Of a DNA stretch of 40,273 bases, positions 19,223-40,273 are shown piece by piece. Below the pieces are notes generated by a model. It was not told the origin of the DNA and did not search any database. It was given only the letters and a program-made list of their open reading frames with translations. Origin of the DNA: a virus; IMG/VR virus record IMGVR_UViG_3300036944_000785, positions 1 to 40,273 of that record; one strand, 5' to 3'. The position numbers and the translations under genes are program-made. The first letter of the stretch is position 1, and each line of letters opens with the position of its first letter.

Positions 19223-19671
19223 TTACCCACCCATTTAGGCTCCTGAGTGGCCCAACTCTTTTTCATAGTAATAGGCATCCCGGCCGTGATCCCAACGCCG
19301 CAGGCAACAAGTTCCCCCTTGCTTTTCTCGTCACAATTTCCAAGTGATGGCTTGGGTTCGCTATCCTGCATGTCTGCAGCTATCGCCAGATATCCGGCTG
19401 CGTCACGGTAATTGTCGCGCTTTCCTGCCCCATTCAGTTCGCGGGCCAGCTTAAAGAGCACCATCATGTGGGCTACATCGCGGGGGGTTATTTCTGGGGA
19501 GCTTCCCGCAGCGGCCTTTGCATTTCTGTAGCCGTTCCACAGCTGGGCTATGACATTGTGGCTATCCTCAGGCGATCCATACTGCTGCTGGCGTTCGCCA
19601 TTGATGATATCGTGGGCCTCTGCGAGGATAGAGCCTCGCTTCCCGCCGTCGTCCTTGCGTCCTTCGGTCAT
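19219..19671 (-). CDS. DUF6378-type phage protein
   Basis: A 150-aa protein starting at the ATG that overlaps the previous stop at 19671, behind GGGGGTGGAGAA. The sentence ILAEAHDIINGERQQQYG, then HNVIAQLWNGY, ITPRDVAHMMVLFKLAREL and KRDNYRDAAGYLAIAAD, is the conserved core of the DUF6378 family found in many phages. It is helical, in the spirit of MazG/dUTPase-like folds, but the metal ligands are not certain. The C-terminal 40 residues look variable. Function unknown. Confidence 0.78.
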   Translation of the reverse strand: MTEGRKDDGGKRGSILAEAHDIINGERQQQYGSPEDSHNVIAQLWNGYRNAKAAAGSSPEITPRDVAHMMVLFKLARELNGAGKRDNYRDAAGYLAIAADMQDSEPKPSLGNCDEKSKGELVACGVGITAGMPITMKKSWATQEPKWVGK

Positions 19672-20021
19672 TTCTCCACCCCCTTGAACGCGAGGAATAG
19701 TTTCGATACGGCTGTTGACGGTGAGTGTGAAGAACCACGAACCTTCACTTTGCTTCTGAATTTGACAAATGTGGCTGTGTAGTTTGGACACGCCTCTTCG
19801 CTATATTGCGTGCGGTCTGGTGATGATGTGATCGTAACCACTCCGTGCTTCCGCATCTCCTCCACCAGTTCCCACGCAGCGTTCATGTCGGTGGCGTAAT
19901 CTGGGATTTTCACATCACAATATGAGCAATCATCAGGGCATCTGTAATTTGTTCTAGTTCCCTGAGCACATTTACCACCCCTCGCCTCAGCCACCTTCGC
20001 CGAAAGTTCATCGTTGGTCAT
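19668..20021 (-). CDS. Phage_ABA_S-like (BC1872-type) protein
   Basis: A 117-aa protein starting at the ATG at 20021 behind AGGAGCCAACCC. Early residues TNDELSAKVAEARG, a Cys-containing loop (CPDDCSYCD) and YATDMNAAWELVEEM match my memory of the phage ABA-sandwich (BC1872-like) family. The C-terminal TAVSKLFLAFKG resembles the closing helix. The family has no known activity and is common in early operons. Confidence 0.65.
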   Translation of the reverse strand: MTNDELSAKVAEARGGKCAQGTRTNYRCPDDCSYCDVKIPDYATDMNAAWELVEEMRKHGVVTITSSPDRTQYSEEACPNYTATFVKFRSKVKVRGSSHSPSTAVSKLFLAFKGVEK

Positions 20022-20031
20022 GGGTTGGCTC

Positions 20032-20244
20032 CTACTTCCTTGCCATATATGTTTCGTGGTCGTTCTGCCTGTATCCATCAGAGCCGACGCTGATCACAAC
20101 TCCACACTTCCTGCATACGCAAAGCCTGCTAGTGCCATCAGGGCAATCCTCACTTACCCCATGTCTGAACTCGACACAGAAATTACGATGATTGCATGTG
20201 GCAATTTTCCAGAGACGCATAAACGCTGTGGTTAATCTCTTCAT
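20032..20244 (-). CDS. Small zinc-ribbon-like protein
   Basis: A 70-aa basic protein starting at the ATG at 20244 (a GTG three codons earlier is possible). C-x-H (ATCNHRNF) and LCVCRKCG motifs could form a zinc site. It is coupled to the membrane-protein gene upstream. No family name can be given. Confidence 0.6.
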   Translation of the reverse strand: MKRLTTAFMRLWKIATCNHRNFCVEFRHGVSEDCPDGTSRLCVCRKCGVVISVGSDGYRQNDHETYMARK

Positions 20245-20249
20245 ATTAC

Positions 20250-20618
20250 TCACTCCCCCGCGTTGCGCTGTTCAGTTTGTTTGCAGTTCAAACTATCGGG
20301 TTCAGCAACTGGCATACTCAGAACCATCGCTTCCATAGCCAGCATCATTCCGCCCAAAACGTAATGTTCTGCCATAAAGAGCGGCACCATGAACGCCACT
20401 TCAGTAGCCAAGTGATATGCAAAGAATGGCTTAGAATACTTGGGCCTTGGCTTGCCGTGTCTGGCGGCCACAATGACACTGAAAAACAGAATAAATATCG
20501 TGCCTCTGACAATCCATTCCGCCCACGTGTTGCCGTTGAAGCAGAATTCCCAGATTACCCAGAAAACAAAGCAATCAAGAGCGACAATCGCTGCGAGCTT
20601 TGATCTTTTACTTTCCAT
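20250..20618 (-). CDS. Membrane protein of unknown function
   Basis: A 122-aa protein starting at the ATG at 20618 behind GGAGGGAGGA. It has about four hydrophobic segments: IVALDCFVFWVIWEF, WIVRGTIFILFFSVIVAA, AYHLATEVAFMVPLF and LGGMMLAMEAMVLSM. The linkers are basic on one side. Small polytopic proteins in early operons may alter the host membrane or exclude other phages. No family is recognised. Confidence 0.7.
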   Translation of the reverse strand: MESKRSKLAAIVALDCFVFWVIWEFCFNGNTWAEWIVRGTIFILFFSVIVAARHGKPRPKYSKPFFAYHLATEVAFMVPLFMAEHYVLGGMMLAMEAMVLSMPVAEPDSLNCKQTEQRNAGE

Positions 20619-20799
20619 TCCTCCCTCCGTTCTTCTTCCACCAGTCCCGCACCATCTGGTGGTACGGGCAGGTAGGCACACCGTGTGCAGGCTTGGGCGT
20701 ACCGGACTTGCCGCCGAAATATGAATACCCGTAGCACTTGCCGGACTTGGTGCAGGGCAGCTGCGATGCGTGGGTGTCGCAGGGTTTAGGACTGGTCAT
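20608..20799 (-). CDS. Small Cys-containing protein
   Basis: A 63-aa basic protein overlapping both neighbours (14 bases upstream, 11 downstream). It contains C-x8-C-x6-C-type spacing and a CPYHQMVRDWWKKN end. The sequence GKCYGYSYFGGKSGTPKPAHGV looks like a small zinc- or disulfide-stabilised fold. The ribosome site is weak (AGGTGCGACC). Function unknown. Confidence 0.6.
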   Translation of the reverse strand: MTSPKPCDTHASQLPCTKSGKCYGYSYFGGKSGTPKPAHGVPTCPYHQMVRDWWKKNGGRNGK

Positions 20800-23881: not shown

Positions 23882-24229
23882 TTAGAACGCTATCTCGTAT
23901 CCCAGTCCCAACGATTCACCGGCAGCGGTGATCAACTCGCCCACCCTGTCGGCAATCGGCAGGTCAGAAATCCACACCCGATTCATACCAAGCTCAGGCG
24001 TAGGCCGGTTAATTACCCGGGACGAATCGCCGCACAGCTTCGAGCAATACTTCTGCACTGCAAAACGTCTCCTGAACTTCCGGCCACAATATGGACACAC
24101 AGAATGCATCAGCTTTTCGCGGTGCTCCCGTGCGCAACGGTTTGAGCAGTATTTGCCCCAACCCTTTGCAAGGCGGGCAGGCTCAACGCGCATTTCCTTG
24201 TTGCAGTTCTGGCAGTTGACTATCGGCAT
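23882..24229 (-). CDS. Zinc-finger protein with two Cys4-type knuckles
   Basis: A 115-aa protein whose ATG overlaps the previous stop (TGATG at 24229). There are two copies of a C-x2-C...YCSxxC pattern: CQNCNKEM...YCSNRC at about residues 6-32 and CPYCGRKF...YCSKLC at 45-66. Each probably binds one zinc. The spacing recalls small MYM/TRASH-type or HNH-associated knuckles, but no catalytic HNH is present. The C-terminal 45 residues are a helical domain. A nucleic-acid role beside the CII-like regulator is likely. Confidence 0.72.
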   Translation of the reverse strand: MPIVNCQNCNKEMRVEPARLAKGWGKYCSNRCAREHREKLMHSVCPYCGRKFRRRFAVQKYCSKLCGDSSRVINRPTPELGMNRVWISDLPIADRVGELITAAGESLGLGYEIAF

Positions 24230-24744
24230 CACTTTGTCCTGTTTTGAGATGTTTTTACGACCCACAACACGGGATGCTTTCCGTCGAACAGGCTGGCTTC
24301 GGGATCGCTCAGTACCAGACATTCCCCGCCCTGTTCACGCCGCGCGGCAATGAACACCTGCTCGAGGGATTCAATGGCTATCATCAGGGGCTTGTGGAGC
24401 TTGGTGTAGGGCTTGCGGTCGGTCTTGGCCTGTTTGAGGTAGGCATGCACGGCGTCGTATGCTGCCATGACAAAGCCACCGGCGGGTGATTCATCAATGA
24501 CAGGCGTATCCTCACTGAACTCTTTGTTGATGAGATCAAGCGCAACGCGGTCGCCGGTTATGCTGATTATCTCCAAAAATTCTTCAAGACCGATCTTGCT
24601 GATCGAACGCTCGCCCCACGGATTGACCTTCTGATAGAGAGTCGAAGGCGCCATATCCATCTTGGAAGCAAGCTCCTTGACGCCATACTTGTGGACGGCA
24701 GCCTGAATCGCTTCGATAATCTCAGGTGTCTGTAATCGTGCCAT
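24229..24744 (-). CDS. CII-like regulatory protein (Phage_CP76 family)
   Basis: A 171-aa protein. The opening IIEAIQAAVHKYGVKELASKMDM, then STLYQKVNPWGERSISKIGLEEFLEI and ITGD (residues about 8-65), is the characteristic sentence of the Phage_CP76/CII family: an HTH fold with an N-P-x-x-E-x-x-x-L linker. Members regulate the early lytic or lysogenic decision. It is the second leftward early gene after the Cro-like gene. The C-terminal 100 residues are helical and less conserved. Confidence 0.82.
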   Translation of the reverse strand: MARLQTPEIIEAIQAAVHKYGVKELASKMDMAPSTLYQKVNPWGERSISKIGLEEFLEIISITGDRVALDLINKEFSEDTPVIDESPAGGFVMAAYDAVHAYLKQAKTDRKPYTKLHKPLMIAIESLEQVFIAARREQGGECLVLSDPEASLFDGKHPVLWVVKTSQNRTK

Positions 24745-24788
24745 GGGCTTACAGTTCCTTTTTGCTATTGGGCATGGGATAAAAAACC

Positions 24789-25022
24789 ATGGAACAAATA
24801 ATCTGTGACATGCGCATCACGTTCAAAAAGTCCGCGACCGGCAAACATTTTGCCACCGTCCGCCTGCTGACTCCGGCAGAAGTCCGCTTCCACAACATCA
24901 GTCTGCCCGAAGGCACTCCGGCCTATGCCCTGTATGAGCGGTGCGCGCAGGAGGCTATTCAGCGGCTCCTGAGCGTTCCGGGGTCGCATGAGGTTGCGTT
25001 GCAATGCCATCTGCCGGTGTAA
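24789..25022 (+). CDS. Small protein encoded antisense between the Cro-like and CII-like genes
   Basis: A 77-aa protein on the strand opposite its neighbours. It has a plausible folded sequence (MEQIICDMRITFKKSATGK, FATVRLLTPAEVRFHN, EGTPAYALYERCAQEAIQRLL), with G/C-rich third positions like the rest of the phage and unlike its antisense frame. It begins 45 bp from the CII-like start with a weak ribosome site, and no promoter is obvious. It occupies the only sizeable gap in the leftward operon. No family is recognised. Confidence 0.55.
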   Translation: MEQIICDMRITFKKSATGKHFATVRLLTPAEVRFHNISLPEGTPAYALYERCAQEAIQRLLSVPGSHEVALQCHLPV

Positions 25023-25024
25023 GG

Positions 25025-25225
25025 TCATTGCGCTACCGGCGCTGGACGCTTGTCGCCGTAGACGTAGGGCCAGAGCTTGCAGAGCGTAGACGTATGCAAC
25101 CCCTTACGCTTCCCGCTGAGCAGTCGCGTGATTACAGGGGCAGGAACACCGGCTACCTCGGCAAGGCGTGCGGCAGGCCAACCGGCCTCGGTGAGCATGG
25201 TTTGGATGTCGTGCTTGATGTTCAT
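25025..25225 (-). CDS. Cro-like HTH repressor
   Basis: A 66-aa protein starting at the ATG at 25225. A compact helix-turn-helix is visible in MLTEAGWPAARLAEVAGVP followed by PVITRLLSGKRKGLHTSTL (residues about 9-46). It is the first gene of the leftward operon, divergent from the CI-like repressor, which is the standard place for a Cro. The predicted -10 box ends only about 8 bases before the ATG and there is no good ribosome site, so its message may be leaderless. Confidence 0.78.
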   Translation of the reverse strand: MNIKHDIQTMLTEAGWPAARLAEVAGVPAPVITRLLSGKRKGLHTSTLCKLWPYVYGDKRPAPVAQ

Positions 25226-25281
25226 GGCCCAAAGAATACCAAAAGGAAGGTTTGTGGGCAAGCAAAACTACCACAAGGTTG
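25226..25281 (-). promoter_or_regulatory. Leftward early promoter with two operator words
   Basis: Read leftward, TTGCCC (25261-25256), a 17-bp spacer and TATTCT (25238-25233) form a promoter with 4/6 matches in each box. Operator word TACCAAAAGGAAG lies at 25237-25249 in the spacer and -10. A relative, TACCACAAGGTTG, lies 32 bp away at 25269-25281. The same words occur at 27265-27310 in the opposite direction. Bound repressor would block this promoter. Confidence 0.7.
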
Positions 25282-25323
25282 TTGCCAATTCGTATGCCCC
25301 CAATGCAATTTGTAAGGATGAAC

Positions 25324-26058
25324 ATGGAAACAGCAGCATTGACTGACCTTGAAAGGTACAGAGATGAACACTATGACGGGAATACTGCGGCACTCGCACG
25401 GGCGTGCGGTGTCGAACCAAATCTTCTGACGCGCTGGTTCAGGGGAGATCGCAAGCCTTCTTGGAAAAATCTTGCGCCGATACTGGAAGTTTTGGGCGCG
25501 CAAATTGTTTTCCCCGGAGATGCAAAGCCGCAATCTCGTGAGGTGTGTTTTGTATCCCCTAAGCGGCTCAACGTATCCGACGCGGAATCTCCTATCCCAG
25601 AAGATTATATCGCAGTTCCTCTTGCGGCAGGAGAAGTTGCAGCAGGCCGAGGCATGATTTCAGAAGACCAAATACGCTCATGGGTATTAGTCTGGAAAAA
25701 TCATGATTCGGTTCGCTTTAGGACAAATCTTATGGCAGTAGAGATAGGCAAGGGCCAAAATTCCATGGTTCCCACACTCCACCCGCAGGACGTCCTCTTG
25801 GTTGATAGAGACGATTTCAACAACCGGTTTACACCGCCCGGGAATATTTTCTTGGTCAGAGAACCGGATGGGTCAGTCACTGTGAAGCGTGTCACCATTA
25901 AGCAGCGCAACGGTGATATGATGCTTACATTTTATAGTGATAACGCAGTTGAACACCCACCCCTATCTTATTCGCTCACAGAAGATTATTCAGGGAGCAT
26001 TGAAAGGGCGGTTGTTGGCCGGGTGGTTTGGGCATGGTCAGATATGAGCAGGAAATAA
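25324..26058 (+). CDS. CI-like phage repressor with S24 autocleavage domain
   Basis: A 244-aa protein starting at the ATG at 25324, which has AAGG seven bases before it; an ATG six bases upstream overlaps that site. HTH DNA-binding residues are about 18-45 (GNTAALARACGVEPNLLTRW). A linker follows, then a LexA/CI-type S24 domain with cleavage site Ala107-Gly108 (EVAAGRG), nucleophile Ser147 in NSMVP and general base Lys188 in VTVKRV. It maintains lysogeny and should be inactivated by RecA-stimulated self-cleavage after DNA damage. The two genes behind it on the same strand would be expressed in the lysogen. Codon use is less GC-rich than in the structural genes. Confidence 0.9.
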   Translation: METAALTDLERYRDEHYDGNTAALARACGVEPNLLTRWFRGDRKPSWKNLAPILEVLGAQIVFPGDAKPQSREVCFVSPKRLNVSDAESPIPEDYIAVPLAAGEVAAGRGMISEDQIRSWVLVWKNHDSVRFRTNLMAVEIGKGQNSMVPTLHPQDVLLVDRDDFNNRFTPPGNIFLVREPDGSVTVKRVTIKQRNGDMMLTFYSDNAVEHPPLSYSLTEDYSGSIERAVVGRVVWAWSDMSRK

Positions 26059-27204: not shown

Positions 27205-27228
27205 CAAAATTCCCATATCAAACAAAAG

Positions 27229-27253
27229 CCCCGGCCTTGGTCGGGGTATTTTT
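27229..27253 (+). terminator. Intrinsic terminator of the repressor operon
   Basis: CCCCGGCC-TT-GGTCGGGG forms a stem of up to 7-8 bp (one G-U), followed by TATTTTTTT. It ends the repressor and exported-gene transcript and separates it from the rightward promoter that begins within the next 10 bases. Confidence 0.9.
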
Positions 27254-27320
27254 TTGCGCACAACCTCCCTTTTGGTATTTTCTACTTGCCATAAAAACTT
27301 CCTTTTGGTATTTTTACCTC
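27254..27320 (+). promoter_or_regulatory. Rightward early promoter region with two operators
   Basis: There are two nested promoter-like units. TTGCGC (27254), a 16-bp spacer and TATTTT (27276) form one. TTGCCA (27286), a 17-bp spacer and TATTTT (27309) form the stronger one, with start near 27321. Each spacer carries the operator word, CTCCCTTTTGGTA at 27265-27277 and CTTCCTTTTGGTA at 27298-27310, 33 bp apart. These are reverse complements of the words at the leftward promoter, so one repressor can control both. This promoter drives the structured RNA region and the recombination/accessory operon. Confidence 0.7.
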
Positions 27321-27930
27321 ACCACGAACGAACACCGCCTCATCAACCCACACGCTACGGCACACGGGAGCACTGAGGACCAGCGGTAGGCTGGAGTGGT
27401 CGCCGGATGAACCGGAATCCTAGGATGCAGAGCCGAGCCACAGGCCGGACGCTCTAAACGGGGTGAAGGGGATGAGGGCGGGACGGGAAGGTAAAAGAAA
27501 TTTGGGAGAGGCTCCGGCGGCGTGGAAAGCGTCTAGGCACATCCGCCTTGGACCGGAGCAGACGCAGCGCAGACACGCGGAGAACCGTAACCGTGAAAAA
27601 AGCAACCCTGCGACAGTAGCGGGAAAGCGGTGGCAGGGAGCCGGGATAGCGTCCGGCCCGGAGCCTCAACCAACATCGAATACTCGGCCTCTCCGAGGAG
27701 GTGAATATGTCACTGATACTCGTGAGAGATTGGTTTCCGGCAGCCGACAAGCTGACGGACCAAAAAGCGGTGACGGTAATGCCGGTAACACCAGCGCAGC
27801 CAGATGGGGGCTGTGTGCAGTGAAAAGCGGTTGTACCTCCCCGCTTAAGAGTAAAACAGGGCAGGACAGCATTACGCCATCAGTCCTGCCCTCCTCAGAG
27901 GGGCCGAAAAACTAAACAATAAGGAGGAAT
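27321..27930 (+). ncRNA. Candidate large structured non-coding RNA 1 (leader of the rightward operon)
   Basis: About 610 nt with no convincing long gene. Many stems can be read directly: CCAGC-GGTAG-GCTGG (27380-27394); AGAGC/GCTCT around GCC/GGC (27429-27456); a 10-bp long-range pair GAGGCTCCGG/CCGGAGCCTC (27508-27517 with 27657-27666); inside it GCGTCT/AGACGC and CCCTGC/GCAGGG; CTCGG-CCTCT-CCGAG (27683-27697); TTGG-TCCG/CGGA-CCAA (27731-27761); AAGCGG/CCGCTT (27825-27845); and GGGCAGGAC/GTCCTGCCC (27859-27889). The density and the long-range helix suggest an ornate phage RNA in the style of GOLLD or ROOL, though I recognise no conserved core of either. It is probably transcribed on induction. 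Confidence 0.6.
27707..27823 (+). CDS. Possible 38-aa peptide inside structured RNA 1
   Basis: An ATG preceded by a near-perfect AGGAGGTGAAT ribosome site opens a 38-codon frame (MSLILVRDWFPAADKLTDQ...). The ribosome site can be partly hidden by the hairpin CTCGG-CCTCT-CCGAG just upstream. The peptide has no known motif. The frame overlaps two strong hairpins, so either it is a translated regulator of the RNA fold or the frame is accidental and the purine tract is structural. Confidence 0.4.
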   Translation: MSLILVRDWFPAADKLTDQKAVTVMPVTPAQPDGGCVQ

Positions 27931-27933
27931 GCA

Positions 27934-28275
27934 ATGGTCACTCTCACTAAGGAACAAGTTCAGGAAATTTTGGAAGCATCAATGCCTGACCTAAAAAAGG
28001 CAGTTGTTGAAGAGATGAAATCCCATATTGGTTGGGAAGCCCGTGAAGAAGCTATGAAGCTTGTCAGTGAAGCCATCACAGCATTTGTCGCATCAGAAAT
28101 AGTACCAGAAATCAAAGCACAGCTTGAAGCAAGCAAGGACGGGCTTGTTGCAACAGGCGTAGCAGCTGCCCCCATGTTGGTTGAAGAAATCGCAAAGGCA
28201 CTTTGTACCAGCGTCAAAGAAAAGATGGAGAACTCGTACCGGCGCGGTGAAGTTTTCAAAGCTCTTTTCACATAA
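27934..28275 (+). CDS. Small helical protein between two structured RNAs
   Basis: A 113-aa protein with AAGGAGGAATGCA before ATG. It is almost entirely alpha-helical and Glu/Lys/Ala-rich (LTKEQVQEILEASMPDLKKAVVEEMKS is spread over residues 4-30), with a more hydrophobic middle (GLVATGVAAAPMLVEEIAKAL) and a basic end (YRRGEVFKALFT). It has no Cys. It is the first protein gene of the rightward operon. I recall similar hypothetical phage proteins ending in FKALF, but none with a function. Its place between two structured RNAs makes RNA binding worth testing. Confidence 0.75.
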   Translation: MVTLTKEQVQEILEASMPDLKKAVVEEMKSHIGWEAREEAMKLVSEAITAFVASEIVPEIKAQLEASKDGLVATGVAAAPMLVEEIAKALCTSVKEKMENSYRRGEVFKALFT

Positions 28276-28600
28276 AAAATCTCGTCGGGCTTTGGAGTGG
28301 CCATCCGTACCTCCCCAGAAACCGGTGCAGGGAACGCGGCTGTTTATATCCCTGCACCACTCCAAGGCCCGACACCATAGCTTGCCCCCTAGCAGGCCAT
28401 ACGAAACAGGGATTTTCCGGCTCCGTGAAATCACTGGCGAGAAGTGCGGACACGGACTGCACCGGCTGCCACCAACAGCACCTAGGCTAGCCAGCGGATA
28501 CATGCAACGGGCGGCGTGACTCAGCCAAACTCCTTCTTCGGTCCCTGCGCACCGAGCGAGTCAAAGCGCAGGAAAATTTTGTCCATGAACGGCAACCATG
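28276..28600 (+). ncRNA. Candidate structured non-coding RNA 2
   Basis: A 337-bp gene-free stretch with very strong pairing. GTCGGGCTTTGGAGT (28284-28298) pairs with ACTCCAAGGCCCGAC (28359-28373), 15 bp with one G-U. Inside it GGTGCAGGGA/TCCCTGCACC (28324-28333 with 28349-28358) form a perfect 10-bp stem whose 3' arm directly abuts the outer helix, so the two can stack. Downstream, CCGG-TCCGTG-CACT / AGTG-CACGGA-CCGG forms a compound hairpin (about 28419-28463), and CCTGCGC/GCGCAGG a third (28543-28573). No long poly-T follows. It may be a processed RNA or an attenuator-like leader for the genes after 28613. Confidence 0.6.
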
Positions 28601-28612
28601 ACGGAGGAAGCC

Positions 28613-28786
28613 ATGACGACCAAAATCATCGCAAGCTACAACAATGGCACCATTCTCAGCGCAGTATCACGGCGCGAACGTGCAGCGGAAAGACGCAGAT
28701 GGGTTCGTGAAAACGACGACGTTATCGGCGTGGCGGTTCTGTCGATCTTCCTCGGAATCTACTTCCTCGTTCTGGGGGTCATGTAG
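28613..28786 (+). CDS. Small single-pass membrane protein
   Basis: A 57-aa protein starting at the ATG at 28613 behind GGAGGAAGCC; an ATG 15 bases upstream lacks a site. A basic N-terminal half (SRRERAAERRRWVREN) is followed by one C-terminal hydrophobic segment (VIGVAVLSIFLGIYFLVLGVM). The positive-inside rule places the N-terminus in the cytoplasm. It is expressed early with the recombination genes. Function unknown; it could change the host membrane. Confidence 0.7.
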   Translation: MTTKIIASYNNGTILSAVSRRERAAERRRWVRENDDVIGVAVLSIFLGIYFLVLGVM

Positions 28787-31698: not shown

Positions 31699-32130
31699 AT
31701 GAACAGGCTTAACGAGATAGCAGCGCAACTGGACGGCGTTGAATACCGCAACGAAGAAACGTTCATAAATCAAAAGCAACTTGCCGAAGAAGGAATTGTG
31801 GTTGCCTTTGGTGCAAGTGATGACCTGCTCGAACTGCGCGGGGCCATTGATGATGAGTACGGTGCATGGGAAGGCATAAGCATCATGCTCATCAAGACGA
31901 AGGACGGGGAAATAAAGGCTCTGTCGTGGGAAGAATTCCACGATAACAGGAGCTACATAGGTGGCGAATTTGAGCGCCACATCACCGCCAAATGGTGTCC
32001 CAAAGATACCGACGCCAGCTGGAAGATAACCCCCTCCTGTGAACACGCCACATTCAACGTGGAGGAAGACGGCGATCTGTACTGCACCGGAGCAGTTTTC
32101 TACCTCAAGGACGCTTTGAAGGAACTGTAG
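31699..32130 (+). CDS. Conserved phage protein of unknown function
   Basis: A 143-aa acidic protein with GGAAAGG before ATG. The sentence EEGIVVAFGASDDLLELRGAIDDE, then HITAKWCPKDTDASWKI, HATFNVEEDGDLYC and GAVFYL, recurs in many phage genomes as a hypothetical family. It looks like a beta-rich single domain. No catalytic motif is clear. Confidence 0.7.
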   Translation: MNRLNEIAAQLDGVEYRNEETFINQKQLAEEGIVVAFGASDDLLELRGAIDDEYGAWEGISIMLIKTKDGEIKALSWEEFHDNRSYIGGEFERHITAKWCPKDTDASWKITPSCEHATFNVEEDGDLYCTGAVFYLKDALKEL

Positions 32131-32214
32131 CCTCCCCTCCCAGCGGCTCTCACGGGGGGCCGCGAATGAGCTGGGGAACAATCAAGGAATGCTTTACAGT
32201 TGGAGGCTTACCAA

Positions 32215-32433
32215 ATGAGAACATGGCGCGACATCGCAAAGCCCATCATCTCCGAGGTGCTAGCCCTGCATCCAAAGCAGGGGCCAGAACAGCGAAAGGC
32301 TCTAGTTGAGGCATACCCTTTCGGACAGCGTCAATACCATCCGTACAAAGTGTGGTGTGACGAAATCAGGAAACAAAAGGCGCAGATTGCGAGGCGCGAG
32401 AACGCGCACAATCTGCCGCTGTTTAAGGAGTAA
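32215..32433 (+). CDS. Small conserved phage protein
   Basis: A 72-aa basic protein starting at the ATG at 32215 behind GGAGGCTTACCAA. The sequence MRTWRDIAKPIISEVL, then AYPFGQRQYHPYKVWCDEIRK, is a small family I recall near phage recombination and accessory genes. It resembles a short winged-helix, and no function is known. The 84 bp before it hold a small GCGGC/GCCGC hairpin. Confidence 0.68.
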   Translation: MRTWRDIAKPIISEVLALHPKQGPEQRKALVEAYPFGQRQYHPYKVWCDEIRKQKAQIARRENAHNLPLFKE

Positions 32434-32435
32434 CA

Positions 32436-32546
32436 ATGCTGACCATACTGAAAATCATCGGCTGTGTTGCACTCTTCTGGATTGGCGCGATAATTCTCAA
32501 GCTGTGCTTCGCCAAGCCTAGCAGCACGGAAGGAGGGGAGAACTGA
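32436..32546 (+). CDS. 36-aa membrane peptide
   Basis: A very short gene with AAGGAGTAACA before ATG and a stop that overlaps the next ATG (TGATG). Residues 3-27 form one membrane helix (ILKIIGCVALFWIGAIIL). Strong translation signals on both sides support it being real. Confidence 0.62.
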   Translation: MLTILKIIGCVALFWIGAIILKLCFAKPSSTEGGEN

Positions 32547-33028
32547 TGGATAAACAGACTTACAAAACCGGTGACGTTGTGCTGGTGAAGGCACGTATTT
32601 TAGACGGCATGACTAGTCATGGAGATGTTCGCATACACATAGATAGAGAGTATGTAATCAAGCCTACGTGCTGCTCCCCAAGGGCCATTGATGGATACGA
32701 CAACACACCTGAAATAAATAGACAGTGGATTCCTGTGTCGGAGCGGCTGCCCTACAACTTTGATTGGTACGAAGTGACGATCATGGACTGCGGGATACCT
32801 GCAAGAACAATTCGCAGGTTTAACGATGGTAAATTTTACGCTATTGGCGACAGAATTTCCAGTGACGTTGTCGCATGGAAAGAGCCTTCTGCCCCCTACT
32901 CGCCGCCCGCCCCCGAATGGTCGTGTGACACGTGCCAGCACAACCCCGTGTGCCGGTTTGTAGCGGCGGATAAGTACCTCGACAAGGACAGCAACTGCTG
33001 CGGCGAGCACTACGCCGCGAAGGAGTAA
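32546..33028 (+). CDS. DUF551-containing phage accessory protein
   Basis: A 160-aa protein with the DUF551 signature in the middle: QWIPVSERLPYNFDWYEVTIMD, then RRFNDGKFYAIG and VVAWKEP (residues about 60-113). An N-terminal 55 residues and a Cys-rich C-terminal part (CDTCQHNPVCRF, NCCGEHY) flank it. DUF551 proteins are frequent in phage accessory regions and have no known activity. The Cys tail may bind a metal. Confidence 0.75.
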   Translation: MDKQTYKTGDVVLVKARILDGMTSHGDVRIHIDREYVIKPTCCSPRAIDGYDNTPEINRQWIPVSERLPYNFDWYEVTIMDCGIPARTIRRFNDGKFYAIGDRISSDVVAWKEPSAPYSPPAPEWSCDTCQHNPVCRFVAADKYLDKDSNCCGEHYAAKE

Positions 33029-33030
33029 CC

Positions 33031-33621
33031 ATGCCTAACCACACCTACCAGCCAGGCGACCGCGTTGAGCGCATCAGCACGGGGGAGATTGCCCCGTTTA
33101 GTGAAATTGTTGAATCGTCTTTTGGGAACTTTATTTCCACTCAACCTACATGCGGCCTTGAGGAAATTATGGGTGCAAAGGCTGAACCTCATTGGTGGCC
33201 CGCCTCAGACTGCCGCCCCGCAGTTGACAACGCGGCAGAACTGGCCGCCAAGGACGCGGAGATTGCGCGGCTTGAGGCAGAAAACGAGGCGTTGCGCTGC
33301 CACCACAGCGATGCAGACAGGGCATTAAGCGAATGGCACAGGCAAGAGCAGCGCATTGCCGAGCTTGAGGCTGAGGTAGCAGCAGAAAAAGACGCATATC
33401 ACAAGCTGGCGAACGAGGCACAGGAGAAATACACGAAGCTGTACGCCACCGAGCGCGAGAACGCCAAGCTGCGCAAGCTGTGCGGGGAGGCGGCGAAGTT
33501 TTTTATCAACACGGAATGCGGACACTTTGAATGCCACAAATGCAAGCACCTGCATAACTGCGGGCTTGTCGAAGGAGAGATGGTTCGCAAACTCCGCGCC
33601 GCAGCGGAAGGGGGGGAGTGA
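33031..33621 (+). CDS. Coiled-coil accessory protein with Cys-rich end
   Basis: A 196-aa protein. It has a compact N-terminal part (residues 1-65), then a long Ala/Glu coiled coil (about 68-150, AELAAKDAEIARLEAENEAL), and a C-terminal CGHFECHKCKHLHNC cluster that may bind zinc. It ends in AAAEGGE and overlaps the next gene by one base. Proteins of this modular type are common in phage accessory stretches; the role is unknown. Confidence 0.68.
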   Translation: MPNHTYQPGDRVERISTGEIAPFSEIVESSFGNFISTQPTCGLEEIMGAKAEPHWWPASDCRPAVDNAAELAAKDAEIARLEAENEALRCHHSDADRALSEWHRQEQRIAELEAEVAAEKDAYHKLANEAQEKYTKLYATERENAKLRKLCGEAAKFFINTECGHFECHKCKHLHNCGLVEGEMVRKLRAAAEGGE

Positions 33622-34004
33622 TGGCTAAGAGATTTAGTGTGGTCACGGAATACTATGGTCGATTCAGGGATGTGGGAGCTATGGAAGAGGATAGCGACGG
33701 TGCTTATGTACTTTTTACCGACTACGCCACCCTCCTAGCCCGCGCCGAGGCGGCGGAATCCGAACTTGTCCGCGTGAGGGCTGGAGGCATTGAATCCATG
33801 CGCAGGGTCGAGGCTGCTGAGAAGGAGCGGGACGCTATCCGCGCCGAACGCGACAGGATGCGCGAAGCGTTGGAACAGTACGCCGATAAAATGAACTGGG
33901 GATTTTACGATATGTCAGGTTGTGAGAAAGGGCATGGTCGAAGTGAAGACGCGTGTTTCCTTGGAACCGACATAGCCCGCGCGGCACTTGGAGGTGGGGA
34001 ATGA
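33621..34004 (+). CDS. Coiled-coil accessory protein
   Basis: A 127-aa protein starting at the ATG at 33621 that overlaps the previous stop. A short folded start (KRFSVVTEYYGRFRDVGAM) is followed by an Ala/Glu/Arg coiled coil (about residues 35-88). It ends DIARAALGGGE, nearly the same as the end of the next gene (DIARGVLGGGE). This points to a duplicated or exchanged gene end. Confidence 0.66.
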   Translation: MAKRFSVVTEYYGRFRDVGAMEEDSDGAYVLFTDYATLLARAEAAESELVRVRAGGIESMRRVEAAEKERDAIRAERDRMREALEQYADKMNWGFYDMSGCEKGHGRSEDACFLGTDIARAALGGGE

Positions 34005-34249
34005 ATACGTGCATCCACTACGAAGTTGGCGACTCTTTCAACGAATACTGTTGGAAATGGGGTGGAGCACCGCGATGCAAAAACTGCATCCTTGGTCAGC
34101 CGGTATGGGTGCAGGAGCTGGTTAAAGGGATTGAGAAGAATAGAGACGAAACTGTTTCAGCCCTCCGTGAGATCCTCGAAAACCACGAACATTTAACCTC
34201 CGCCGACTGCGCAGACATTGCGCGGGGAGTGCTTGGAGGTGGGGAATGA
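34001..34249 (+). CDS. Small Cys-containing accessory protein
   Basis: An 82-aa protein starting at the ATG at 34001 behind GGAGGTGGGGA. N-terminal CIHYEVGDSFNEYCWKWGG and RCKNCILGQ form a likely Cys4 metal site. A helical second half ends DIARGVLGGGE. Start and stop both overlap neighbours. It shares its C-terminal residues, ribosome site and junction sequence with the previous gene. Confidence 0.65.
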   Translation: MNTCIHYEVGDSFNEYCWKWGGAPRCKNCILGQPVWVQELVKGIEKNRDETVSALREILENHEHLTSADCADIARGVLGGGE

Positions 34250-34404
34250 AGAATAAGGACAAAACAGAAGAGCTCATAAATTGCATACAGTGTGGCAAGG
34301 AATTCAAATCAAATCGCCCTAATGCAAAATACTGTTCGAGATCATGCGCATCTGAGGCGTGTCATTTGAAGTGGATGCTGCACAAGCAAGACGACGGGGA
34401 GTAG
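34246..34404 (+). CDS. Small zinc-finger protein
   Basis: A 52-aa protein with GGAGGTGGGGA before ATG. It has C-x2-C (INCIQCGKEF) followed by YCSRSCASEAC, the same knuckle as in the leftward zinc-finger protein, probably binding one zinc. The gene is AT-richer than its neighbours, which suggests separate acquisition. Confidence 0.68.
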   Translation: MKNKDKTEELINCIQCGKEFKSNRPNAKYCSRSCASEACHLKWMLHKQDDGE

Positions 34405-34407
34405 CCC

Positions 34408-34689
34408 ATGCACGAAGTAAACGAATCCACATACAAGCGCAACCTGTACCGCCTCGAAGAGCAGATGAAGCAGCGGGCAGAGAAAATCCGCCAGCTTGAA
34501 AAGGAGTTGGCGCAGGAGAGGGAAGAGAAGGCGCGGCTGGCTGAACTGGCATACGAAGTCCACGTTATTGACGACGAAGACACGTTCCTTTGCCCTGTGT
34601 GCCGCGGGACTCTCGCTACACGTCACCGTGAAGATTGCGCATACGCGCTGGCAATGAACATCCTGCAACCCAAGACCGAGGCGGTGTAA
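34408..34689 (+). CDS. Coiled-coil plus Cys-pair accessory protein
   Basis: A 93-aa protein. An N-terminal coiled coil (RLEEQMKQRAEKIRQLEKEL) is followed by a small Cys/His site (FLCPVCRGTLATRHREDCAY). It is probably a dimeric zinc protein. It ends one base before the ASCH gene. No known function. Confidence 0.65.
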   Translation: MHEVNESTYKRNLYRLEEQMKQRAEKIRQLEKELAQEREEKARLAELAYEVHVIDDEDTFLCPVCRGTLATRHREDCAYALAMNILQPKTEAV

Positions 34690-34690
34690 G

Positions 34691-35161
34691 ATGAACCACA
34701 TCACCCTCCCCGTCATAACAATCCGCCAGCCTTGGGCGTGGCTCATCCTGCAGCAACAGGACACGGCTGCACGGAAGGACGTTGAAAACCGCAATTGGAA
34801 GCTTCCGGCAAAATACATCGGCAAGCCCGTGCTGGTGCATACGAGTGTCAGCAATAAGTTGCTCATGGAAGAAAGTGACGCACAGCTCTACGCCAGGGGA
34901 TTTTCCGAGAACAATCTTATGATGTTCCCGCTTGACGACATCGAAGGATGCGGACGTTCCGGCCACATCGTCGGTTGTGTTGTCTTCTCAGGATGCACCC
35001 AGAATGTAGGCCAGCCCAAGCCCTCCCCGTGGTGCGACAGCGACTCCAAATTCTGGTGGCACATCAGCGAGGCATATCCCGTCACACCGGTACCGGCCAA
35101 GGGAAAGTTGTCGTTCTGGCAGTTCGATTATCCGCACGCACAGGACATTCGATTCTTTTAG
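34691..35161 (+). CDS. ASCH-domain protein
   Basis: A 156-aa protein. The opening ITIRQPWAWLIL, then KDVENRNWKLP and KPVLVHTSVS, is the signature of ASCH (PUA-related) domains. GHIVGCVVFSGC gives the central strand, and WWHISEAYPVTPVPAKGKLSFW the end. ASCH proteins bind RNA or modified nucleosides, and some hydrolyse acetylated cytidine. In phages they often lie among accessory genes. The substrate here is unknown. Confidence 0.8.
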   Translation: MNHITLPVITIRQPWAWLILQQQDTAARKDVENRNWKLPAKYIGKPVLVHTSVSNKLLMEESDAQLYARGFSENNLMMFPLDDIEGCGRSGHIVGCVVFSGCTQNVGQPKPSPWCDSDSKFWWHISEAYPVTPVPAKGKLSFWQFDYPHAQDIRFF

Positions 35162-35364: not shown

Positions 35365-36405
35365 ATGAGCGTTTTCAAGGTAAAGAGCCGAGACCTGTGG
35401 GCGTCGAAATGGCGCGAGGATGGCAAGCAGCGCGTCAAATACTTCAACACCGAAGCTGAGGCCGCATCCTTCGAATCTGACCGCCTAGCGGCCAAGGCCG
35501 GAAGCGACGACAGGGTAACGCTCATCGAACTGGTTGTGCTGTTTTACCGGAACAACCCCAGCAAGAACGAACACACGAAAAAGAACGTGCTCTACTTCCT
35601 GTGCGGGCATGATGATACATCTGGCCGTCACACCGAAGGGGCCGGAGAATTCCTTGCCAACAAATACGCCGACAGCCTGAACCGGCGCGACCTCGAACTC
35701 ATGCGCGATAACATGCGCGTCAAAAATCCCAAAGTCAGCAACGCGACAATCAATAAATATCAGGCGTACCTGCGAGGTGTCCTGTCGTGGGGCGTTGAAC
35801 AAGACCTCATTGCCATCAACCCGTGGCAGTACAAGCGCCTCAAGCACGTCAAGCCGCCCGTGATCGTGCGCATGCCAGCCCTCATGAACATTTACGGTGA
35901 ACTGCCGGAATACATGCAGTGGGCAGTCAAGACGGCCCTGTGCCTCGTCGTGCGTCCAGGGCTTGTCGAGCTTTTCGGCCTGCTGTGGTCAAACTTTGAT
36001 TGGCGGCGCGGCCTCGTCTACGTCAAACAGGGAAAGACAGGAGAGATAAAGACGGTCTACCCTCCTGCCACGTATATGGCCGAGGCATATCAAAGGTATC
36101 ATGATGATACCGCCAACGGCATCCCCTACGTGTGCCACCGGAATGGTCGCAGGGTGTTGTCGTACAGGCAGGCATGGGATAACGCATGCAAACGGGCAAA
36201 CGAGAGTATGCGCTTCTACGATATCCGGCACGTCTCCATTACCGAGATGCTGGCTCAGGGCGCAGACCTCGCATCTGTCGCAGCGCAGGCAGGTCACAGC
36301 AGCATCGAAACCACCGCCAAAAACTACGCCCACGTCACCCCGAGAGGCCAGATTCACGCCGCTACGCTCATCCCCATGTTGCCTGAAAATGACGGCAAGA
36401 AATAG
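35365..36405 (+). CDS. int: Tyrosine-type integrase
   Basis: A 346-aa protein. An N-terminal arm-binding part (residues 1-50) is followed by a SAM-like core-binding domain (about 51-160) and the catalytic domain: Arg197 in VVRPG, Lys224 in KQGKTGE, FYDIRH with Arg288, His311 in AGHSS and nucleophile Tyr321 in KNYAH. The usual box II H-x-x-R is Y285-x-x-R288, so Tyr replaces the first His. It recombines attP with the 3' end of a host tRNA-Leu gene. It is the last gene of the rightward operon, directly before attP. Confidence 0.92.
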   Translation: MSVFKVKSRDLWASKWREDGKQRVKYFNTEAEAASFESDRLAAKAGSDDRVTLIELVVLFYRNNPSKNEHTKKNVLYFLCGHDDTSGRHTEGAGEFLANKYADSLNRRDLELMRDNMRVKNPKVSNATINKYQAYLRGVLSWGVEQDLIAINPWQYKRLKHVKPPVIVRMPALMNIYGELPEYMQWAVKTALCLVVRPGLVELFGLLWSNFDWRRGLVYVKQGKTGEIKTVYPPATYMAEAYQRYHDDTANGIPYVCHRNGRRVLSYRQAWDNACKRANESMRFYDIRHVSITEMLAQGADLASVAAQAGHSSIETTAKNYAHVTPRGQIHAATLIPMLPENDGKK

Positions 36406-36406
36406 C

Positions 36407-36432
36407 TTGTATACCGCGCAGTTGGTATACAA
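36407..36432. repeat. attP arm-type inverted repeat (P side)
   Basis: TTGTATACC and GGTATACAA form a perfect 9-bp inverted repeat with an 8-bp spacer, starting right after the integrase stop. The same word recurs on the other side of the core. These are probable binding sites of the integrase N-terminal domain. Confidence 0.7.
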
Positions 36433-36469
36433 ACGTATCTAACCATACGAACATAATACCGTTTTTACC

Positions 36470-36527
36470 GGACTCAAAATCCGCCGCCCGCAAGGGCTTG
36501 CGAGTTCGAGTCTCGCCCTCGGTACCA
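36470..36527 (+). other. attP core: 3' part of tRNA-Leu(CAA)
   Basis: This stretch reads as the 3' part of a tRNA-Leu: anticodon loop CTCAAAA (anticodon CAA), 3' anticodon stem TCCGC, long variable arm CGCCCGCAAGGGC, T arm GCGAG-TTCGAGT-CTCGC, and acceptor end CCTCGGT-A-CCA. No 5' half is present, so it is not a tRNA gene by itself. Integration here would restore the 3' end of the host gene. The identity probably begins at GGACTC, because the base before it breaks the anticodon stem. Confidence 0.85.
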
Positions 36528-36535
36528 GCAAAAAC

Positions 36536-36566
36536 AAGGGGTTGCAGCAACGCAACCCCTTTCGTT
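36536..36566. terminator. Bidirectional terminator between integrase/attP and the late operon
   Basis: AAGGGGTTGC-AGCAAC-GCAACCCCTT forms a perfect 10-bp stem. T-rich tails follow on both strands (TCGTTTT rightward, GTTTTTG leftward). It ends the rightward early operon and the leftward late operon, which converge here. Confidence 0.85.
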
Positions 36567-36575
36567 TTGGTCATT

Positions 36576-36597
36576 TTGTATACCACTGTATACCACT
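36576..36597. repeat. attP arm-type direct repeats (P' side)
   Basis: TTGTATACC at 36576 repeats the arm word, and GTATACCACT occurs twice in tandem (36578-36587 and 36588-36597). With the inverted pair at 36407-36432 they flank the core as expected for arm sites. Confidence 0.65.
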
Positions 36598-36831
36598 CTA
36601 CAGCATGGCCCTCAACTGAGCGGCTTCGGCCTCAAGTTCCGCGATGCTGGCAGTGATCTCGTCAAGTCGTTCTTGAGGGTCGATGACAGGTTCGGCCCAT
36701 GTGCCATCTGGCTGGGCAATTGCGTCAAACGTGGGAGGCGGTCCATTCATGACGATGTGGTCAATAATTTCCCATTCCGGCAAATCTGCGAATGCTCCAT
36801 CTTTACCCGGTATCGCGTAGTATGTCGTCAT
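36598..36831 (-). CDS. Tail-fibre accessory/assembly protein
   Basis: A 77-aa acidic protein with GGGGGTATTAACC before ATG, the last gene of the late operon. A compact N-terminus (YYAIPGKDGAFADLPEWEI) is followed by a Pro-rich bridge and a C-terminal coiled coil (RLDEITASIAELEAEAAQL). Small proteins directly after the fibre gene with a coiled-coil tail are usually fibre chaperones or fibre-bound subunits. No specific family can be named. Confidence 0.7.
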   Translation of the reverse strand: MTTYYAIPGKDGAFADLPEWEIIDHIVMNGPPPTFDAIAQPDGTWAEPVIDPQERLDEITASIAELEAEAAQLRAML

Positions 36832-39922: not shown

Positions 39923-40273
39923 TAGTCAAACCCTCCGGTCTGGGGGTTGTACTTGAGCGTTTTCTTCTGCTCCCCGGCACCGCTGTTTTTCAGCCTGATT
40001 TCAGAGTTGTACTTTTCCCAATTGCCCGGGCCGTGCACGATATCAAGGTACGTCCTTTCGAGCCGCTGTAGGTTGTGCTTAAACGCTTCCTTGCTCTGGG
40101 ACTGCTCAAGGCTGCCAAGCTGAGACTGCAACAACATGTTTTCCTTTTCAGACACGGCACCGAGGGCACCACCCGTGGGGCTGTTGGCACGCATCTCTTG
40201 CAGGGCGTCGAACCCTACGCGCGCCTTGATGGAGTCCAGAGTTTTGGCAAGGTCATGCGCCTTGGTGCCGGGA
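39922..40273 (-). CDS. DNA-ejection / internal virion protein, C-terminal part (continues from 1-1002)
   Basis: This holds the last part of the 408-aa protein that starts at 1002. Bases 40147-40273 repeat 1-127. The end of the protein is helical and basic (KEAFKHNLQRLERTYLDIV), then KNSGAGEQKKTLKYNPQTGG and the stop, which overlaps the start of the 600-aa gene. An internal Met in the overlap can look like the start of a 90-aa gene, but the frame is open through it. Confidence 0.78.
   Translation of the reverse strand, partial: PGTKAHDLAKTLDSIKARVGFDALQEMRANSPTGGALGAVSEKENMLLQSQLGSLEQSQSKEAFKHNLQRLERTYLDIVHGPGNWEKYNSEIRLKNSGAGEQKKTLKYNPQTGGFD
40147..40273. repeat. Terminal direct repeat, copy 2 (assembly overlap)
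   Basis: Identical to 1-127; see copy 1. Removing it gives a circular genome of 40,146 bp. Confidence 0.95.

Follow-up and report, generated by a model that had tools for sequence, protein, structure and literature searches.

The analysed stretch of DNA (the window) is the 40,273-nt IMG/VR record IMGVR_UViG_3300036944_000785, which carries an exact 127-bp direct terminal repeat (1-127 and 40147-40273). This length points to a k-mer overlap from the assembly of a circular molecule; the window is therefore probably the complete genome of a temperate phage, assembled as a circle. Approximately 90% of the phage was called as coding, and the non-coding stretches 27205-27706 and 28276-28612 in the early region are unusual gaps. 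A search of the whole window with ARAGORN found zero tRNA genes. A terminase gene was present, and genes related to it occur in many viral contigs. Distant relatives of the exonuclease were found in a few genomes of one bacterial phylum, which did not settle the host. No reverse-transcriptase match, as would be expected next to a retron ncRNA (msr-msd closed by a1/a2), was found among the early genes in a scan covering part of the ORFs of the window. No iterons were found among the repeats, and a reading of the region as a replication origin was dropped for this reason. The features of the early region and of the integrase are as follows.

25232-25278, minus strand: inverted copy of the promoter/operator-like repeat next to the repressor gene, 81% identity to 27268-27315
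25324-26058, plus strand: CI/S24-type repressor gene (phrog_4 transcriptional repressor, E 7e-20; Pfam Peptidase_S24)
27228-27255, plus strand: terminator-like hairpin closing the upstream genes, an 8-pair stem followed by the T run ATTTTTTTGC
27262-27281 and 27295-27314, plus strand: two 20-bp direct repeats, operator-like, putative repressor sites
27286-27314, plus strand: promoter-like site TTGCCA-17-TATTTT, agreeing with the consensus at 9 of 12 positions and with TG preceding the second hexamer
27321-27501, plus strand: part 1 of the leader, with ordinary folding (z -1.3)
27502-27673, plus strand: module 2, closed by helices of 4 bp (27502-27505 with 27670-27673) and 10 bp (27508-27517 with 27658-27667)
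27684-27907, plus strand: module 3, closed by helices of 10 bp (27684-27693 with 27898-27907) and 5 bp (27695-27699 with 27892-27896)
27707-27823, plus strand: orf38, a possible 38-aa gene, called as a gene, with GGAGG at 27697-27701
27934-28275, plus strand: first longer early gene (113 aa), called as a gene, with one distant phage relative (E 2e-6)
28284-28373, plus strand: hairpin, arms of 17 bp, within the non-coding gap 28276-28612
From about 29695: exonuclease VIII-like gene
35365-36405: integrase, the name being taken from its phage relatives

The promoter-like site overlaps the 20-bp direct repeats. A scan of 5 kb gave five promoter-like sites against 4.6 expected, so that the match alone is at chance level and the site is credible through its combination with the repeats. 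The inverted recurrence of the repeat beside the predicted S24-type repressor gene would be the pattern expected of operators, and transcription probably starts near 27321. These features agree with the repressor-controlled promoter that had been proposed ahead of the leader in an earlier note on this DNA. A 34-nt match in Desulfovibrio phage 7757 covered only the promoter and start stretch, with a gene and no structured leader behind it, and was treated as chance or a weak hint of the host. The phage MW202423, which carries a relative of the downstream gene, showed a different context there.

The 610-nt leader (27321-27930) folded with a minimum free energy of -243 kcal/mol and a z score of -4.5 on the plus strand, where none of 120 shuffled sequences was equally good, and of -3.5 on the minus strand. 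The 65 tiled windows of 610 nt from the same phage had a mean z of 0.06 with a standard deviation of 1.15 and a lowest value of -3.75; individual tile scores are rough at 14 shuffles each. Strong predicted folding, in line with the dense structure claimed for the leader, was therefore borne out against the background of its own genome. The lowest tile (35991-36600) comprises the 3' end of the integrase gene and the intergenic stretch after it, possibly an attachment site or a terminator. At the 150-nt scale an unusually stable fold (z about -3.2 to -3.5 on the plus strand) was also seen in coding sequence at 31800-32049.

The excess of folding was unevenly distributed along the leader. Beyond the ordinary first part, 27502-27682 had a z of -2.9 on both strands, and 27683-27908 had a z of -6.1 on the plus strand and -5.9 on the minus strand. 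Within the leader only 27700-27849 stood out at the 150-nt scale, which indicates that much of the signal rests on the long-range closing helices. Inside module 3 a 9-bp GC-rich hairpin (27859-27867 with 27883-27891) was predicted. The hairpin in the next gap had a z of -4.7 over 28280-28390, and a single-sequence model search for the 28276-28612 gap gave no relatives. The proportion of A-rich unpaired positions (51%, against 50% in shuffles) was not used as evidence. The self-complementary ATCCTAGGAT pointed out in the earlier note is present at 27417-27426, but lies within chance, as about 0.6 perfect 10-base palindromes are expected per 610 nt by simple arithmetic at 4^-5 per position.

The 10-bp helix that closes module 2 had a mean pair probability of 0.97 in the predicted fold, and 10% of the dinucleotide shuffles of the leader contained a perfect inverted repeat of at least 10 bp. 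This helix had been claimed earlier; it exists, but its 3' arm lies at 27658-27667, one base off from the 27657-27666 given. An 11-bp perfect inverted repeat (27443-27453 with 27648-27658) competes with this closing helix or could stack on it. Its use as an alternative helix was rejected, since forcing it costs about 20 kcal/mol and the sequence of the 27443 arm is missing in the second phage described below.

Patterns back-translated from a long open frame in the leader served purely as a DNA probe, and the sole homologue found was at the end of the IMG/VR contig 3300036546_000108. The last 132 bases of this contig align to 27502-27633 with mismatches at 27506-27507 followed by 126 identical bases (27508-27633), so that, save for the four matching bases 27502-27505, the shared stretch and the 5' arm of the helix begin at the same base. 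The match runs into the contig end, and the rest of module 2 is outside that contig. To the left of the match the contig carries TTCGATGTTGGTT, the reverse complement of the window just right of the 3' arm, and the left end of the element in that phage, TTCGATGTTGGTTGAGGCTCCGG, corresponds exactly to the reverse complement of its right end in the window, 27658-27680. Both the left flank there and the right flank here would be accounted for by a 23-bp inverted repeat in an ancestor.

In the second phage module 2 lies approximately 3 kb inside a rightward early operon and not at the operon head, downstream of a small gene that appeared Arc-like by eye. If the genome is circular, module 2 would precede a homologue of the window ORF 31699-32130. 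Module 2 is on the sense strand of the early operon in both phages. The first 352 bases of the contig are 97% identical to 31833-32185, and the two phages are mosaic relatives; patches of 75-100% identity were seen over 31833-34694 and 19638-20790. The different operon position indicates that module 2 is a cassette untied to the promoter, and it looks like an exchangeable one. This single homologue and the window are 100% identical over the core they share and so give no covariation signal, which leaves the RNA structure and the claim of a new class unproved; the exact identity would also fit a recent transfer and is silent on constraint.

No nucleotide homologues were found in phages, plasmids and three genome samples from part of one phylum, and the short hits inspected appeared to be chance matches in unrelated neighbourhoods. 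An exact 24-mer of module 3 had no match in viral contigs. A 16-mer of the module 2 arm led back to 3300036546_000108 alone; the other hits had 16-17 bases in common with it (about 23 in one case) and no similarity outside them. Models of the single modules gave no new matches in 1.2 Mb of related-phage loci. The lack of further copies is weak evidence, given genome samples from part of one phylum, and the host may carry others.

Two protein-coding explanations were considered for the region. The frame at 27463-27915 is open for 150 codons, which occurred in shuffles with a P of about 0.01, and it is uninterrupted across the 132 nt visible in the second phage. However, its codon score was below those of all 25 genes tested, and its GC content peaks at codon position 2, as in only one of 61 called genes. 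It had no match in Pfam or among phage proteins, and weak hits among the fetched loci vanished with composition correction or fell on a real gene in a frame other than its own. On composition and the lack of homologues the frame was dropped, and a real protein gene at 27463/27472-27915, with the structure as an incidental property, is highly improbable. Thus the earlier statement that there is no convincing long gene was right as regards the composition of this frame, but it passed over the rarity of such an open length and overlooked orf38. The latter has GGAGG ahead of an ATG and GC values by codon position of 0.64/0.46/0.59, which resemble those of real genes; composition outside orf38 is not gene-like. 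The GGAGG is part of the helices that close module 3, and in the predicted fold this Shine-Dalgarno sequence is paired with 27890-27896 and the AUG is inside a hairpin loop. Module 3 might then mainly be the frame of a small gene under translational control, its ribosome-binding site masked by the closing helix and the rest an untranslated flank. We consider this unlikely, as no relatives of the peptide were found, 0.14 such pairs of Shine-Dalgarno sequence and ATG are expected by chance in the leader, and module 2 is left unexplained.

The main alternative to a functional structured RNA is an inert palindromic insertion. Miniature elements of bacteria such as MITE, ERIC and Correia are palindromic, with terminal inverted repeats and many copies. 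Module 2, and perhaps module 3, may be a small DNA insertion of this kind in non-coding DNA of the early operon. The relation of TTCGATGTTGGTTGAGGCTCCGG to 27658-27680 looks as if the element had 23-bp terminal inverted repeats and a size of approximately 186 bp. It occurs in two different contexts, and since the two strands have similar z scores, RNA and palindromic DNA cannot be told apart by energetics alone. On the other hand, only two occurrences are known, and no further copy was found in the phages, plasmids and genome samples or in an end-sequence scan of viral contigs, unlike the multicopy elements. The left arm in the window is also without the outer 13 bp, so the inverted repeat is perfect over 10 bp in the window and reaches 23 bp in no single copy, only by combining both phages. 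An insertion without RNA function is possible but doubtful. Three points favour a functional structured RNA: module 2 has sense orientation in the early operons of both phages, its sequence is preserved exactly, and the edge of the homology falls on an edge of the structure.

Compact phages seldom devote 600 nt to an untranslated leader. The earlier note had compared the region with GOLLD and ROOL and suggested checks against these and OLE, HEARO and group I/II introns. The Rfam search of the window returned nothing at gathering thresholds, and 27205-28640 had no hit at E-values up to 5, so no model of GOLLD, ROOL, OLE, HEARO or group I or group II introns was matched. GOLLD and ROOL are likewise large foldable non-coding stretches of phage genomes, and tRNA genes are frequent beside them, a common but not obligatory feature (PMC12286853). 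In contrast to these, the present region has no Rfam match and no tRNA, is shorter, and shows modular exchange rather than one conserved unit. The proposal of a structured, mostly untranslated leader was supported by energetics and composition, but a single large RNA of the GOLLD or ROOL kind was not, as module 2 travels without the upstream part.

A closer likeness in position and folding is found with the put RNA of phage HK022. The putL and putR antiterminators lie behind the early promoters PL and PR, putR being located about 270 nt after the start; a put element measures about 70 nt, forms two stem-loops with conserved unpaired bases, and acts in factor-independent antitermination (PMC9378689). 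Here too a structured untranslated RNA is predicted shortly behind a putative repressor-controlled early promoter. The modules differ in being larger and branched, at about 170-220 nt each. No unusual folding was found on the leftward side (24000-25300), that is, no structured counterpart such as put has behind PL.

Overall, we favour a modular structured leader of the early transcript that acts as RNA over an inert insertion or a regulated small gene, with a probability of roughly 45%. On this view the rightward early transcript would start at about 27321 with a 5' leader that for the most part is not translated. It would be built of distinct structured modules enclosed by long-range helices, namely modules 2 and 3 and a comparable hairpin that follows the first gene. 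Of these, module 2 would be a cassette that passes from the early operon of one phage to that of another. The modules may form their helices in vivo and would most likely work on the nascent early transcript by aiding the polymerase or transcript survival, through antitermination, stability or processing. By analogy, the mode of action would resemble that of HK022 put RNA and not that of a free GOLLD-like particle. An RNA leader is favoured by the position of the region, downstream of the promoter-like site and the repressor-type repeats, in a genome of such coding density. Against it, the two strands fold almost equally, which palindromic DNA fits as well, and module 2 of the other phage is not at the head of its operon.

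A new class of helix-closed early-leader RNA cassettes, shuffled between the early operons of phages and acting on the transcript by antitermination or a similar process, is a tentative and rather improbable extension of this reading. Few RNA-only antiterminators and ornate RNAs are known from phages, and the modules would add to them if they are exchangeable RNA devices controlling early transcription; the module boundary found here provides a defined piece for testing.
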